Part shown: one piece after another, positions 9,598 through 38,628 of the stretch
Layout: the number at the start of each line of letters is the position of its first letter
How positions within the stretch are numbered: the first letter of the stretch is position 1
NCBI RefSeq assembly: GCF_000377345.1
Contig: NZ_KB898040.1
Location: 124,001 to 188,000, forward strand
Direction of reading: 5' to 3'
DNA length: 64,000 nucleotides
From: Thioalkalivibrio sp. ALJ16
Lineage (GTDB): Bacteria; Pseudomonadota; Gammaproteobacteria; Ectothiorhodospirales; Ectothiorhodospiraceae
Notes under the pieces: generated by a model
What the model saw: the letters and a program-made list of their open reading frames with translations, nothing else
Databases searched by the model: none
What the model was told of the DNA's origin: nothing
Translations under genes and position numbers: made by a program

Positions 9598-10665
9598 ATG
9601 CGCCAGGAACACTCCGATACCATCCGTCCGATCCATTTTGCCGAGGGCCGTCTGCAGTTGCTGGATCAGCGGCGGTTGCCGCAGGAGACCCTGTGGCACT
9701 CCTATGACGCCGCCCCGGCGGTGGCGGAGGCGATTCGGGCGATGGTCGTTCGTGGGGCGCCGGCCATCGGAATCACGGTCGGATTTGGGGTCGTGCTGGC
9801 CTGCCAGAACGCACTGGGGCAGGCGGACTGGCGCGAACGCGTCGCGGCGGATATCGAAACCCTGCGGGCCGCGCGGCCGACCGCGGTCAATCTGTTCTGG
9901 GCCCTGGATCGCATGGAGGCAGTGGTATCGGGGTGTGCTGATGCCGAGACCGCCCTGGCGGCCGCGGGGCAACACGCACGCGAGATGCTGGCGACGGATA
10001 TTGCCGGCAATCGCCAGCTCGGCGCCCTGGGCGCGGCGCTGATCCCCCCGGGCAGTGGCGTACTGACGCACTGCAACACCGGTTCGCTGGCAACCGGCGG
10101 GTACGGCACCGCGCTCGGCGTGATCCGGGCGGCCTGGGACGCGGGTCGTATTGGCGAGGTGTTCGCGGATGAAACCCGGCCCTGGCTGCAGGGGAGCCGG
10201 CTTACCGCGTGGGAGCTGGTCCACGACGGCATCCCGGTGCAGTTGCTGTGCGAGGGGGCCGCGGCCAGCCTGATGCGGTCCGGGCGGGTAGGCTGGGTGA
10301 TTGTCGGGGCCGACCGGATCGCGGCGAACGGGGATACCGCCAACAAGGTCGGGACCTATGGTCTGGCGTTGTTGGCGCGTGCGCACGGGGTGCGCTTCAT
10401 GGTGGCCGCGCCGGTCGCCACCATCGACTTCGCGATGGAGGATGGCGCGGGCATCCCCATCGAGCAGCGAGGCGAGGACGAGGTGCTGCAGCTGGGGGGC
10501 ACCCGGGTGGCGGCCGAAGGGGCGCGTGCCTTCAACCCGGCCTTTGACGTTACCCCGGCGGATCTGATCGACGCGATCGTGACCGAGCGGGGCGTCATCG
10601 AGTCGCCGACGCGGGAACGGCTCGCGGCGCTGCGCGAGGCGCCATCCTCGCCCTCATCGAGCTGA
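9598..10665 (+). CDS. mtnA: S-methyl-5-thioribose-1-phosphate isomerase
   Basis: A 355-residue aldose-ketose isomerase of the eIF2B-like fold that converts methylthioribose-1-phosphate to methylthioribulose-1-phosphate in recycling of the polyamine by-product methylthioadenosine. The substrate loop VVRGAPAIGI (about 50-59), the catalytic Cys159 in GVLTHCNTGSLATGGYGTAL and the catalytic Asp239 in VGADRIAANGDTANKVGTY are present. Family length is normal. It stands alone between comEC and gyrA, but the window also holds a methylthioinosine-type phosphorylase (36.9 kb) and a FucA-type aldolase (28.8 kb) that may act before and after it. Confidence 0.95.
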   Translation: MRQEHSDTIRPIHFAEGRLQLLDQRRLPQETLWHSYDAAPAVAEAIRAMVVRGAPAIGITVGFGVVLACQNALGQADWRERVAADIETLRAARPTAVNLFWALDRMEAVVSGCADAETALAAAGQHAREMLATDIAGNRQLGALGAALIPPGSGVLTHCNTGSLATGGYGTALGVIRAAWDAGRIGEVFADETRPWLQGSRLTAWELVHDGIPVQLLCEGAAASLMRSGRVGWVIVGADRIAANGDTANKVGTYGLALLARAHGVRFMVAAPVATIDFAMEDGAGIPIEQRGEDEVLQLGGTRVAAEGARAFNPAFDVTPADLIDAIVTERGVIESPTRERLAALREAPSSPSSS

Positions 10666-28820: not shown

Positions 28821-29486
28821 TCAGCTGCGCTCGCGCGGCCCGTAGTCGCGGAATTTTTCCAGCACGCGTTCCATCTCGGCATCGTCGAGCAGTCGCGGCC
28901 CTCCGATCTGCAGGCTCAGCACGTACTGCCGCGCCAGCAATTCGACCTCCTCGGCCAGCCACAGCGCGCGTTCCAGATTCGCGCCGGCGGCGATCATGCC
29001 GTGATTGGCCAGAAGACAGGCGGTGCGCCCGCGCAGCGCTTCCAGTGCGTGCCGCGAGAGCTCCTCCGTGCCGAAGGTCGCATACGGCGCGCAGCGAATG
29101 GAGTTCCCACCCGCCGCCGCCACCATGTAGTGCAGCGCGGGGATGTCCCGCCCCTGGATGGCCACAACACTCGCATACACCGAATGTACGTGGATCACTG
29201 CGGCCAGCTCCGGACGCTCCTGCAGGATGGCCCGGTGGAAATGCCACTCGCTGGAGGGGCGGCGGGACGCCTCCCAGCGCCCGTCGGCGTCGACAAACAC
29301 AAGATCTTCAGGACGCAGGGCCTCGTACGGTACGCCGGACGGCGTAATCAGCATCCCGTCGCCCAGGCGCACGCTCACATTGCCGGAGGTGCCCTGATTC
29401 AGACTACGGCGATTGGTCTCGAGCGCAGTGGTAATCAGGGCCTCGCGCAGTTCGTTTTCATTGGGGTCGGCGGGGGCAGGGGGCAT
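28821..29486 (-). CDS. FucA-type class II aldolase
   Basis: A 221-residue zinc-dependent class II aldolase of the L-fuculose-phosphate aldolase family. Catalytic and zinc residues are all present: Glu80 in RPSSEWHFHRA, His99 and His101 in VIHVHSVYAS, and His162 in LLANHGMIAAGANLERALWL. GGNSIRCAPYATFGTEELS is almost word for word the FucA motif. No fucose genes are nearby. Enzymes of this family (Ald2) also cleave methylthioribulose-1-phosphate to DHAP and methylthioacetaldehyde in the DHAP shunt, and mtnA and an MtnP-family gene occur in this window. The start is uncertain; ATG at 29516 is an alternative, and neither has a good ribosome site. Confidence 0.85.
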   Translation of the reverse strand: MPPAPADPNENELREALITTALETNRRSLNQGTSGNVSVRLGDGMLITPSGVPYEALRPEDLVFVDADGRWEASRRPSSEWHFHRAILQERPELAAVIHVHSVYASVVAIQGRDIPALHYMVAAAGGNSIRCAPYATFGTEELSRHALEALRGRTACLLANHGMIAAGANLERALWLAEEVELLARQYVLSLQIGGPRLLDDAEMERVLEKFRDYGPRERS

Positions 29487-29685
29487 GAACGGTTTCGCTT
29501 CTGAGGGAGACCACATTGTAGCAGCGGGAACACCGCGCATTTTACGTGGTCAATTGGCCGAGACGCGTGCCTGGACGGCGCGGATATGCTGCAATCGTCC
29601 CCGAGGCCGAGTCCTTGCTCCGTCGCCCGATCCGCAACCCAGCGGCCCCGGGTGCATCGGTTTGTTGAAATAGGGAGGAATTACC

Positions 29686-34662: not shown

Positions 34663-35718
34663 ATGCCCGAACCCATGGCTGCCCCCCCGGAACTGCCCCT
34701 TGGCCCCGTCATGCTCGACGTGAGCGGGCTCGAACTGACTGCCGAAGACCGCGAACGCCTGCGCCATCCCGCCACAGGTGGCGTCATTCTGTTCGCTCGC
34801 AATGCCGGCACGCCGGAACAGGTGCGGGCGCTGACCGACGCCATCCGGGCCGAACGTCCCGGCATCCTGATCGCCGTGGATCAGGAAGGCGGGCGGGTAC
34901 AGCGTCTGCGCGATGGCTTCACCCGTATCCCGCCAATGCGCGAGCTCGGACTGGTCGATGACTATGACCGCAACAAGGCCTGCGAACTGGCTCATGCGGT
35001 CGGCGAGCTGCTGGCGCTGGAGCTGCGCGCGGCGGGGATCGATTTCAGCTTTACCCCGGTGTTCGATCGCGATATCGAGGTCAGCGAGGTCATTGGCGAT
35101 CGCGCCTTTCACCATGACCCGGACGTGATTGCTCGGCTGGCCGGCGAGCTCATTCGCGGACTGGCGGCCGGCGGCATGGCCAGTGTCGGCAAGCATTTCC
35201 CCGGCCATGGGGCCATCGCCGCCGACTCCCACGTGGCACTGCCGGTGGATGATCGGCCTCTGGCCGAGATCGAGGCCGATGATCTCGCGGCCTTCCGGCC
35301 GGTGCTGGGCGATCTCGACGCCATCATGCCGGCACACGTGGTCTATCCGCAGGTCGACGACCGCCCGGCCGGTTTTTCGCGCATCTGGCTGCAGGACATC
35401 CTGCGTCGCGAGTTGCGTTTTCGTGGCGCGATCCTGAGTGACGACCTGGCCATGGTCGGCGCGGAGGCGCTGGGCACCCCGGCCCAGCGGGCCGCAGCCG
35501 CCCGGGCGGCCGGCTGCGATATGGTGTTGATCTGCAACCAGCCCGAGCAGGCCGACGTAATCCTCGAATCCTGTGCCGCGGACAGGCTGGACCCGGCGGC
35601 CCTGCGGCGCCTGCAGGCCCTGCGTGCACGGCCGGTGGAGCCCGCACCGCGGCGCCTGCAGGCCCTGCGCGCGCAGCTGCAACACTGGCTTGCGGCCAGT
35701 TCTGTCACCTCCGTATGA
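34663..35718 (+). CDS. nagZ: Beta-N-acetylhexosaminidase NagZ
   Basis: A 351-residue GH3 glycosidase that removes N-acetylglucosamine from anhydro-muropeptides in peptidoglycan recycling. Conserved features are GPVMLDVSGLELTAEDRERL, AVDQEGGRVQRLRDGFTRIP, the KHFPGHG motif with the catalytic His nearby, and GAILSDDLAMVGAEALG with the nucleophile Asp. No signal peptide, so cytoplasmic. The C-terminal tail has a 15-residue period repeat (RRLQALRA twice), caused by a 20-base direct repeat. Confidence 0.94.
   Translation: MPEPMAAPPELPLGPVMLDVSGLELTAEDRERLRHPATGGVILFARNAGTPEQVRALTDAIRAERPGILIAVDQEGGRVQRLRDGFTRIPPMRELGLVDDYDRNKACELAHAVGELLALELRAAGIDFSFTPVFDRDIEVSEVIGDRAFHHDPDVIARLAGELIRGLAAGGMASVGKHFPGHGAIAADSHVALPVDDRPLAEIEADDLAAFRPVLGDLDAIMPAHVVYPQVDDRPAGFSRIWLQDILRRELRFRGAILSDDLAMVGAEALGTPAQRAAAARAAGCDMVLICNQPEQADVILESCAADRLDPAALRRLQALRARPVEPAPRRLQALRAQLQHWLAASSVTSV
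35605..35669 (+). repeat. 20-base direct repeat in the nagZ tail
   Basis: CGGCGCCTGCAGGCCCTGCG occurs at 35605-35624 and again at 35650-35669. The 45-base spacing is in frame and duplicates RRLQALRA in the protein. Confidence 0.85.
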
Positions 35719-35761
35719 AGGCCTCCGCGCATGCCGCACGCGGGCCGCGGGGCGCCCGGCA

Positions 35762-35791
35762 TTGGCGCCCGCTCGCTCGCGCGCCTATAAT
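35762..35791 (+). promoter_or_regulatory. Sigma-70-type promoter for the DsrE-like gene
   Basis: TTGGCG (four of six) and a perfect TATAAT are separated by 18 bases. The predicted start would leave a leader of about 60 bases with GGAG before the ATG at 35858. This is the best promoter in the window. Confidence 0.75.
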
Positions 35792-35857
35792 GCGCCACCG
35801 GTTAGCACCTGAGCCAATGGTTATATTCACACTCACCACTTAAGCTGGAGATTAAAA

Positions 35858-36226
35858 ATGGCCGACAAGCTCCTGATCGTCATGGTCAACACCGACCCGA
35901 GCAGCCCGTCCGAACTGGGTGCCCCGTTCTTCCAGGCCACCGTGGCCGCCGCGATGGAATACGACGTTGAGGTCATCATGACCGGTCGTGCCGGTGAGCT
36001 GGCCAAGAAGGGCGTGGCCGAAAACCTGTTCGTGCAGGAAGGCTCCAGCAAGAGCGTCTATGACTTCATGAAGGACGCCCACGAAGCCGGCGTCGTGATG
36101 AAGGTCTGCACCCCGACCCTGGATCTGTGGGGCAACGACCTGATTCCGGAGATCGAAGAAACCGTGGGCGGCGCCTACGTGATCTCCGAAGCCATGGACG
36201 ACGACACCGTGACCTTCACCTACTAA
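35858..36226 (+). CDS. DsrE/DsrF-like small protein
   Basis: A 122-residue protein of the DsrE/TusD-like fold: DKLLIVMVNTDPSSPSELGA at the start, AMEYDVEVIMTGRAGELAKK, and the single cysteine Cys84 in VVMKVCTPTLDLWGND, placed like the persulfide-carrying cysteine of DsrE. No transmembrane segment or signal peptide. It is monocistronic, with a strong promoter and a strong terminator. Family members carry or transfer sulfur in sulfur oxidisers, but the dsrEFH partners are not nearby, so the role here is open. Codon choice looks like that of a highly expressed gene. Confidence 0.8.
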   Translation: MADKLLIVMVNTDPSSPSELGAPFFQATVAAAMEYDVEVIMTGRAGELAKKGVAENLFVQEGSSKSVYDFMKDAHEAGVVMKVCTPTLDLWGNDLIPEIEETVGGAYVISEAMDDDTVTFTY

Positions 36227-36247
36227 GGTCTCCACGCGTCGTTTGCC

Positions 36248-36281
36248 AGCCGGCCGGCCCATGTGCCGGCCGGTTGCGTTT
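36248..36281 (+). terminator. Intrinsic terminator after the DsrE-like gene
   Basis: CCGGCCGGC and GCCGGCCGG form a perfect nine-base stem with a six-base loop, extended by G-T and A-T pairs, followed by TTGCGTTTGT. It begins 21 bases after the stop. Confidence 0.75.
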
Positions 36282-36360
36282 GTGGGGGGCGGAACCGGGC
36301 GCCTTGCGCACTTCCGGCCGCTCCCACATGATTTCTCGCATCCCCATTTCAGGATCGACC

Positions 36361-36912
36361 ATGAGCCCCGAACAGGCCCGAGCCACGCTGCGCGATGCGG
36401 ACTGCCTTTTCAGTCGGGATGCCGTCGAGACGGCGATTGACCGGCTGGCAGAGCGCACCGCTGCGGAGCTGAAAGACCGCAATCCGTTGGTGCTCGGTGT
36501 AATGAACGGGGGTGTGGTACTGATGGGCGGGTTGCTGACCCGCTGGTCCTTCCCGATGCAGGTGGATTACCTGCACGCCACGCGCTACCGCGGCGGTACC
36601 CGTGGCGGCGAGCAGTTGCACTGGCTCGCACGGCCTCAGACACCACTGACGGGCCGCACCGTGGTGATCGTGGACGACATCCTCGATGGGGGCATCACGC
36701 TCGACGGGATTCATACCTTCTGCCGCGAGCAGGGCGCGGAACAGGTGTATTCCATCGTCCTGGTCGAGAAGGACAACCCGCAGCGCGACCCGGCGATCAC
36801 GGTGGACTTTGCCGCCCTGGAGGTCCCGGACCGCTATGTGTTCGGCTATGGCATGGACTACCAGGACTACCTCCGCAACGCGCCCGGCATCTTTGCCGTC
36901 GCGGGCCACTGA
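36361..36912 (+). CDS. Hypoxanthine-guanine type phosphoribosyltransferase
   Basis: A 183-residue type I phosphoribosyltransferase. The PRPP motif is VVIVDDILDGGITL (about 102-115), the PPi loop is LGVMNGGVVLMGGL and the base-binding end is PDRYVFGYGMDYQDYLRN, the layout of hypoxanthine-guanine enzymes. The start at 36361 has AGGATCG upstream; ATG at 36328 is an alternative without a ribosome site. It lies 27 bases before the MtnP-family gene, whose predicted product is a free purine base, so the pair probably salvages that base to IMP (or GMP). Confidence 0.87.
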   Translation: MSPEQARATLRDADCLFSRDAVETAIDRLAERTAAELKDRNPLVLGVMNGGVVLMGGLLTRWSFPMQVDYLHATRYRGGTRGGEQLHWLARPQTPLTGRTVVIVDDILDGGITLDGIHTFCREQGAEQVYSIVLVEKDNPQRDPAITVDFAALEVPDRYVFGYGMDYQDYLRNAPGIFAVAGH

Positions 36913-36939
36913 TCCAGCGGACCCTTGAGGGATTTCGAT

Positions 36940-37692
36940 ATGTCGACCCCCCGACTCGCCATCATCGGCGGCACCGGCTTGACCCAGTTGAAGGATCTGG
37001 AGATCACCCGGCGCCAGGTCATGCACACGCCCTATGGCGAGCCCTCGGGGCCACTGGTCTTCGGCCACCTCAACGATACCGAGATCGTGTTTCTGCCGCG
37101 GCACGGGGCACGGCACACAATTCCGCCGCATCAGGTTAACTACCGCGCGAACATCTGGGCGCTCAAGCATGCCGGTGTCGACAACGTGATCGCAGTCGCG
37201 GCAGTCGGCGGCATCACCGACGCCATGCGACCGGGCATGATCGCGATTCCCGACCAGATCATCGACTACACCTGGTCGCGCGCCAGCACCTTTTTCGAGG
37301 GGGGCGACCTGGAGGAGGTCACCCACATCGACATGACCTGGCCTTACCACCAGGCCGTTCGGGAAACGCTGTTGCGGGCGGTGGACGACCTGGAGCTGGA
37401 TGCCGTCGACCACGGGACCTACGGCGCGACCCAGGGCCCGCGCCTGGAGACCGCAGCGGAGATCGACCGCATGGAGCGCGACGGCTGTGATCTGGTGGGC
37501 ATGACCGGGATGCCGGAAACGGCACTGGCACGCGAACTCGAGCTGAACTACGCCTGTTGCGCAGTCATCGCCAACTGGGCCGCCGGCCGCTCGGCGGGCG
37601 AGATCACCATGGACGACATCGCCGCCAACCTGAACGTGGGCATGGCGAAGGTCAAGCAGGTGCTGACCCACGTGATCCACGCACTTTCCTGA
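36940..37692 (+). CDS. mtnP: Methylthioinosine/methylthioadenosine phosphorylase
   Basis: A 250-residue purine nucleoside phosphorylase of the MtnP family: LAIIGGTGLTQLKDLE, PRHGARHTIPPHQVNYRAN for phosphate and ribose, and DLVGMTGMPETALARELEL. In human MTAP the purine amino group is read by two Asp residues; at the matching place here the sequence is ANWAAG, with Asn212 and Ala214. The characterised Pseudomonas aeruginosa methylthioinosine phosphorylase (PA3004) also has Asn and Ala there, so methylthioinosine is the likely substrate and hypoxanthine the product. The upstream phosphoribosyltransferase fits this. GAGGGAT precedes the ATG at 36940. Confidence 0.88.
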   Translation: MSTPRLAIIGGTGLTQLKDLEITRRQVMHTPYGEPSGPLVFGHLNDTEIVFLPRHGARHTIPPHQVNYRANIWALKHAGVDNVIAVAAVGGITDAMRPGMIAIPDQIIDYTWSRASTFFEGGDLEEVTHIDMTWPYHQAVRETLLRAVDDLELDAVDHGTYGATQGPRLETAAEIDRMERDGCDLVGMTGMPETALARELELNYACCAVIANWAAGRSAGEITMDDIAANLNVGMAKVKQVLTHVIHALS

Positions 37693-37786
37693 GGGAATGG
37701 GGACACCCGCGCGCGGCACATGCGCCATGCTGCAGGGATTCCGGATCGCCTGGGACGCGACCGCAGGGCCTTTAGCGGCAGCGTTT

Positions 37787-38628
37787 CTACATTGCGGTGC
37801 GGTCGCGAACCACGGCGAGCAACAAGGCGGCCAGTACCGATCGACCCTGGTTCTGGTCGACATAATGGCCATTGCCGACGGCCGCCATCGCCTCCAGTAG
37901 TTCGCTGGTCCGGCGATCAAGGTCTTCCCAGAATTCATTACCCTCGGGTATCTCGTGTCTGACCTGGACCGTCGATACGAAGTGTCTGTCATCCGCCTCC
38001 GCAAAGGCCCGGGTGGCATCCAGCGTACGCTGTTGGAATCCGGCGCGCGCCGGCGCGTCCGTGAACACCACCACATGCCGTTCTTCGGCCTCGCTTCGCC
38101 ACTGGATGCGTGATACCTGTTCCATTGCCAGATGGATGTCCTCGGGGACGTTTCCGGAGTGGCGACCGGTCCCCATGCCGATGTTGATGGCGAGAATGTT
38201 CTTCAGGTAGTGGTTCAGCTCCTCCTCGGCCGCCGGGACATCGATATCGGAGACGGCGAGCGGGGCGGGCGGATAACTGTCGCCCGGATTGCAGAGCGTC
38301 AGGGGATTGTGCACCGTCACGATGCACTGAAACTCCTTTGGAGGACTGCCAGGAGTTCCGAGGTCTCGTTCTTGATGCCGTCAATCGCGTGCTGCATGCT
38401 GCCGGTCACATCGACCACCACCACCACGTCCATCGGCCTGACCTCAAGCCGCTGTACGACCTCGGCCAACCGTTCCGTATCTGTCTGCGCATCTTTCAGC
38501 GCTGCCTCCAGCTCCTCCTGCGCGCTGGCCGCCTGTTCCAGCTCGGCCTCGAGTTCACCGAGCCGCTCCATCAACGCCTCATCATCGAACTGGCTCGTGT
38601 TGGGGAAAAACGGCAGGGCGATCGATAT
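37787..38628 (-). pseudogene. Broken von Willebrand factor A-domain gene
   Basis: Two overlapping frames together make one vWA protein. The upstream frame (to 38317) has an 85-residue product from TTG/ATG near 38574 with a coiled-coil LGELEAELEQAASAQEELEA and the first half of a vWA fold, DVVVVVDVTGSMQHAID, with the MIDAS DxTGS. The second frame, readable from about 38350 or from GTG at 38320, continues FQCIVTVHNPLTLCNPGD and ends with RHVVVFTDAPA and a helical tail. The switch lies near CTCCAAAGGAG (about 38330-38342). Upstream, coding-like sequence (FFPNTSQFDDEAL) runs to a stop at 38629 with no start codon or signal peptide. Most likely a 5'-truncated, frameshifted gene; two coupled genes or programmed frameshifting are alternatives. 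Confidence 0.65.

Follow-up and report, generated by a model that had tools for sequence, protein, structure and literature searches.

The locus described here raises the question of whether the phosphorylase that it encodes, directly downstream of a hypoxanthine-guanine type phosphoribosyltransferase (HPRT), acts on methylthioadenosine (MTA) itself or on its deaminated form, methylthioinosine (MTI), and which purine it would release. A route from MTA through MTI to hypoxanthine has been described for Pseudomonas aeruginosa (PMC6302742, citing Guan 2011, 2012), and that review presents the MTI route as unusual, with P. aeruginosa as its example. The pathway itself is already known, and the pair studied here is one more example, with HPRT adjoining the phosphorylase. 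Our findings make it very probable that, in a gammaproteobacterium resembling Thioalkalivibrio, this pair forms the part that recovers the purine in an MTA salvage route starting with deamination, the activities of the two enzymes and the preference for MTI over MTA being predicted from sequence.

Gene order in the window

The window, by which we mean the whole 64,000-nucleotide stretch of DNA that was analysed (G000:C4:124001-188000), belongs to a genome of 2.76 Mb in 32 contigs that is 99.9% complete. The features relevant to the argument are as follows.

9598..10665, + strand: MtnA, methylthioribose-1-phosphate isomerase (TIGR00512, 441 bits, cut-off 279); ORF 1351-2418 of locus L006, window coordinates converted from G000:C4
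10807-13422: gyrA, next after mtnA (TIGR01063, 1224.5 bits, cut-off 877)
34663..35718, + strand: NagZ beta-N-acetylhexosaminidase (NF003740, 444.5 bits)
35858..36226, + strand: DsrE-like small protein (PF13686 and PF02635, both over cut-off)
36361..36912, + strand: HPRT, 183 aa, running from an ATG at 36361 to a stop codon that ends at 36912 (NF006605, PF00156)
36940..37692, + strand: predicted S-methyl-5'-thioinosine phosphorylase, 250 aa, running from an ATG at 36940 to a stop codon that ends at 37692 (NF006599)

The last four genes follow one another on the + strand in the order nagZ, DsrE-like gene, HPRT, phosphorylase. A gap of 27 nt separates the HPRT stop from the phosphorylase ATG, the phosphorylase reading frame also holding an in-frame TTG upstream at 36925, and this spacing suggests that the two genes may be co-transcribed. 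NagZ is a conserved neighbor that lies outside the pathway; its gene precedes the pair, in the same orientation, in 56 of 80 related loci, the best 80 of at least 574 relatives, and the DsrE-like gene occupies such a position in 32 of the same best 80 of at least 574. Between the DsrE-like gene and HPRT, at 36250-36273, there is an inverted repeat, CCGGCCGG, which lacks a clear T-run and which the terminator scan did not call. Across 35600-38000, the promoter scan gave one site against a shuffled mean of 0.5 and the terminator scan two against 1.1, and in a seven-sequence alignment of the intergenic stretch a conserved element outside the coding edges was not evident.

The phosphorylase and its purine pocket

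The phosphorylase is a PNP_UDP_1 protein in the Pfam family search, and its best NCBIfam model is the S-methyl-5'-thioinosine phosphorylase equivalog NF006599 (384.3 bits, cut-off 223), a model with a loose cut-off that is also passed in two of 14 control genomes and, at 224.6 bits, by a protein with two pocket Asp residues from survey genome G108. The generic MTA phosphorylase (MTAP) equivalog, TIGR01694, comes second and is barely exceeded (279.2 bits against a cut-off of 274.85), leaving NF006599 ahead by 105 bits. By far the closest PDB chain is 3ozb, at 282 bits against 174 for the next. This entry was deposited under the name 'methylthioadenosine phosphorylase' and is tabulated, in PMC5738077, as a P. 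aeruginosa structure with the ligand HPA. We read HPA here as hypoxanthine.

The first-pass annotation of this DNA had placed Asn212 and Ala214 where adenosine-specific MTAP carries two Asp residues, and had likened the pocket to that of the P. aeruginosa methylthioinosine phosphorylase (MTIP), which we take to be PA3004, the protein of 3ozb. Both statements hold in the alignments, where Asn212 and Ala214 correspond to N223 and A225 of 3ozb_A and to D220 and D222 of human MTAP 1cb0_A (chain numbering), with Asp at both positions in 1v4n, 2a8y and 4glf as well. The Asp/Asp pocket expected of adenosine-type MTAP is thus absent. Human and archaeal MTAP (1cb0, 1v4n, 2a8y) belong to the same sequence family and carry out the same phosphorolysis chemistry, but they differ from the window's enzyme in this pocket, and they match it at only 152-174 bits compared with 282 for 3ozb. 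The Asn is present in all 81 sequences compared (the window and 80 loci, the best 80 of at least 574 relatives) and the Ala in 77 of these 81 best-matching sequences, the remaining four having Gly; among the matches listed, the counterpart in Thioalkalivibrio sp. ALJT is 96% identical. These two residues presumably determine specificity, as the first-pass annotation has it.

The equivalog model and the nearest solved structure support the assignment of this protein as a methylthioinosine phosphorylase, and the earlier reading holds as far as sequence can tell. If enzyme assays bear this out, the label MTA phosphorylase, which 3ozb carries in the PDB, would have to be changed for members of this subfamily, and the two pocket residues offer a simple rule that is open to test. 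The contrary proposal makes the phosphorylase a standard MTAP of the adenosine type that works directly on MTA, with HPRT as a general purine-salvage neighbor. It can draw on the fact that the generic model is passed, by about four bits; the 105-bit lead of NF006599 and the replacement of both Asp residues weigh against it.

HPRT, the predicted deaminase and their distribution

The gene 27 bases upstream had been called a hypoxanthine-guanine type phosphoribosyltransferase at first pass, and it is classed as such by the NCBIfam equivalog NF006605 (235.8 bits, cut-off 181), while falling below the cut-off of another HPRT equivalog, TIGR01203 (106 against 150). Its translation contains VVIVDDILDGGIT, which we take to be a PRPP-binding loop. 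The nearest solved structures are 5esx and 5esw, at 186 bits with the next match at 80; in PMC6783271 these are identified as Legionella pneumophila HPRT, for which Km values for guanine and PRPP are reported.

The pairing recurs well beyond the window. HPRT lies on the same strand and at most 400 nt upstream of the phosphorylase in 67 of 79 named loci, taken from the best 80 of at least 574 relatives and comprising those with at least 900 nt upstream (L015, holding only 4 nt upstream, was left out); 11 of the 79 have no HPRT match, and in L051 HPRT is 1.4 kb off. Distances in these loci are approximate, negative gaps arising from an extrapolated phosphorylase start. In addition, 114 genomes were drawn once from the class Gammaproteobacteria, with 113 different family labels among them, and surveyed with four models at curated cut-offs, 14 control genomes being searched alongside. 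HPRT immediately precedes the phosphorylase on the same strand in 61 of the 71 genomes whose phosphorylase is over cut-off; four of the others have no over-cut-off HPRT and six have it elsewhere, including G088 at 445 nt upstream, all survey distances being approximate since they are measured between match edges. Because the adjacency holds in 61 of 71 survey genomes and in 67 of 79 loci (from the best 80 of at least 574), a chance neighborhood of the two genes is ruled out. In P. aeruginosa, HPRT is not known to lie directly upstream, unlike in the Thioalkalivibrio window. A literature search over titles and abstract openings, with subscription papers mostly outside its coverage, returned no description of the hpt-mtip pair.

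The methylthioinosine reading hinged on an MTA deaminase elsewhere in the genome, and the proposal that this enzyme is missing is ruled out by a full-length amidohydrolase that passes NF006549 (642.8 bits, cut-off 540). NCBIfam labels this model only 'TRZ/ATZ family hydrolase'; we take it to be the family that holds the P. aeruginosa MTA deaminase, presumably PA3170. The closest PDB entries to the amidohydrolase are 4dzh, 4gbd and 4dyk, and it also matches 4f0r (418 bits), deposited as an MTA/SAH deaminase. It lies far below the named MTA/SAH deaminase model (261 against a cut-off of 779) and the 5'-deoxyadenosine deaminase model (315 against 522). From its family, the protein is predicted to act on MTA. 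Its gene is on a separate contig from the pair (C7), beside ubiG and unlinked to the phosphorylase. The P. aeruginosa gene order likewise has the deaminase beside ubiG and mtnA beside gyrA, which adds to the likeness already seen in 3ozb as closest structure, in its Asn/Ala pocket and in the presence of a deaminase-family protein. The matched stretches of the two other PF01979 proteins of the genome resemble Xaa-Pro dipeptidase (under the model cut-off) and dihydroorotase.

Across the 114 survey genomes, the phosphorylase is over cut-off in 71, the deaminase in 76, HPRT in 84 and MTA/SAH nucleosidase in eight; the corresponding counts in the 14 control genomes are two, none, none (for NF006605) and seven. 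Of these genomes, 64 combine phosphorylase with deaminase, seven have the phosphorylase without the deaminase, 12 the deaminase without the phosphorylase and 31 neither; 67 carry both phosphorylase and HPRT. None of the 71 phosphorylase genomes has a nucleosidase over its cut-off as well, and nine phosphorylase-bearing genomes give weak nucleosidase-model matches below it. Fisher tests that ignore ancestry give 8e-12 for the association of phosphorylase with deaminase, 1.5e-10 with HPRT and 3e-4 against nucleosidase. The phosphorylase in 71 of 114 genomes, the deaminase in 64 of those 71 and HPRT directly upstream in 61 suggest that the MTI route, already known from P. aeruginosa, is common in the class and that the gene arrangement seen here is a widespread form of it.

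Pocket residues were read in the 71 over-cut-off phosphorylases and in two weaker matches. All 64 genomes with both phosphorylase and deaminase, the window's genome included, have Asn/Ala. The seven phosphorylase genomes without an over-cut-off deaminase comprise five with Asn/Ala, one with His/Ala (G100) and one with Asp/Asp, the last being G108, which holds the sole Asp/Asp phosphorylase over cut-off and in which no deaminase and no NF006605 HPRT reaches cut-off. Two of the five with Asn/Ala (G005 and G038) have fragments of the deaminase, and in two of the seven (G008 and G100) completeness is at most 75%. In G045 (97% complete), an Asn/Ala phosphorylase with HPRT adjacent is accompanied by a single deaminase-model match at E 4e-4; G076 (96% complete, 7% contaminated) has the same phosphorylase and adjacent HPRT with no deaminase match. 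These two (L100 and L101) are the clearest exceptions; they may use another deaminase, or the gene may fall in a gap of the assembly. As for the weaker phosphorylase matches, that of G046 has Asn/Ala and comes with a deaminase near cut-off (516.6 against 540), and that of G054 has Asp at the first pocket position with the second outside the alignment. An adenosine-type MTAP acting directly on MTA would accommodate the five Asn/Ala enzymes in genomes without an over-cut-off deaminase; against this stand the deaminase co-occurring in 64 of 71 genomes, the HPRT gene adjoining in 61 of 71 and, in the window's genome, the lack of a recognized adenine phosphoribosyltransferase (below), and we consider that proposal highly improbable.

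Fate of the purine and of the sugar phosphate

In the favored deaminate-first route, spermidine synthesis would release MTA, the genome encoding both SpeD (AdoMet decarboxylase) and SpeE (spermidine synthase) as sources. The unlinked amidohydrolase would convert MTA to MTI, which the window's phosphorylase would cleave with phosphate to hypoxanthine and methylthioribose-1-phosphate. HPRT, encoded 27 nt upstream, would then join hypoxanthine with PRPP to form IMP, and MtnA, also encoded in the window, would isomerize the methylthioribose-1-phosphate.

No match to the MTA/SAH nucleosidase model TIGR01704 was found in the genome at E<=0.001, and the only other PF01048 protein found is AMP nucleosidase, an enzyme that releases adenine. 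A PF00156 search of the genome returned eight proteins (L091-L098), namely the window HPRT, PyrE, PurF, PyrR, PRPP synthetase, a ComF-like protein under the cut-offs and two others, one of them weakly xanthine phosphoribosyltransferase-like; none of the eight reaches the cut-off for adenine phosphoribosyltransferase. MTA-derived adenine might therefore not be directly reusable, which would explain why deamination comes first in the proposed route. It is a separate observation that AMP nucleosidase is encoded, yet no adenine phosphoribosyltransferase was recognized among those eight proteins.

That AMP nucleosidase is the only other PF01048 protein found also lends something to a broader reading, in which the phosphorylase is the sole purine nucleoside phosphorylase, a 6-oxopurine enzyme taking inosine, guanosine and 5'-deoxyinosine besides MTI, and HPRT takes both hypoxanthine and guanine. 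Such an enzyme would fit the MTI route and widen it, though P. aeruginosa MTIP strongly prefers MTI over inosine. The Methanocaldococcus jannaschii MtiP, described as promiscuous in PMC6302742, speaks for breadth, but as an archaeal protein it offers no more than a remote comparison, and we regard the broader reading as unlikely.

Beyond MtnA, the genome encodes MtnB (TIGR03328), both proteins passing their TIGR cut-offs. The mtnB gene adjoins an ORF for an MtnC-like protein, between metG and rsxA (L090 764-2109, G000:C6). The MtnC-like product scores 101 against a cut-off of 128 and has no Pfam match, its only PDB matches being the human E-1 enzyme and yeast UTR4. A search of the genome for ARD/MtnD gave no PF03079 match, and only part of the MtnA-MtnB-MtnC-MtnD set of aerobic methionine salvage was found. 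The window also encodes, at 28821-29540 on the - strand, a class II aldolase that belongs to the L-fuculose-1-phosphate aldolase family (NF005984, 278 against a cut-off of 264; 1fua, 250 bits). In the DHAP shunt, according to PMC10986504, an aldolase acts on methylthioribulose-1-phosphate. With no ARD found in the genome, the aldolase at 28821-29540 is a candidate for a DHAP shunt-like fate of that compound. A more far-reaching joint reading, tentative and in our judgement rather doubtful, would have deamination before phosphorolysis as the sole means of recovering the MTA purine here, there being no adenine phosphoribosyltransferase, with hpt-mtip as a dedicated module; the sugar phosphate, lacking MtnD, would leave through an aldolase such as that at 28821-29540, in a DHAP shunt-like branch starting from MTI.
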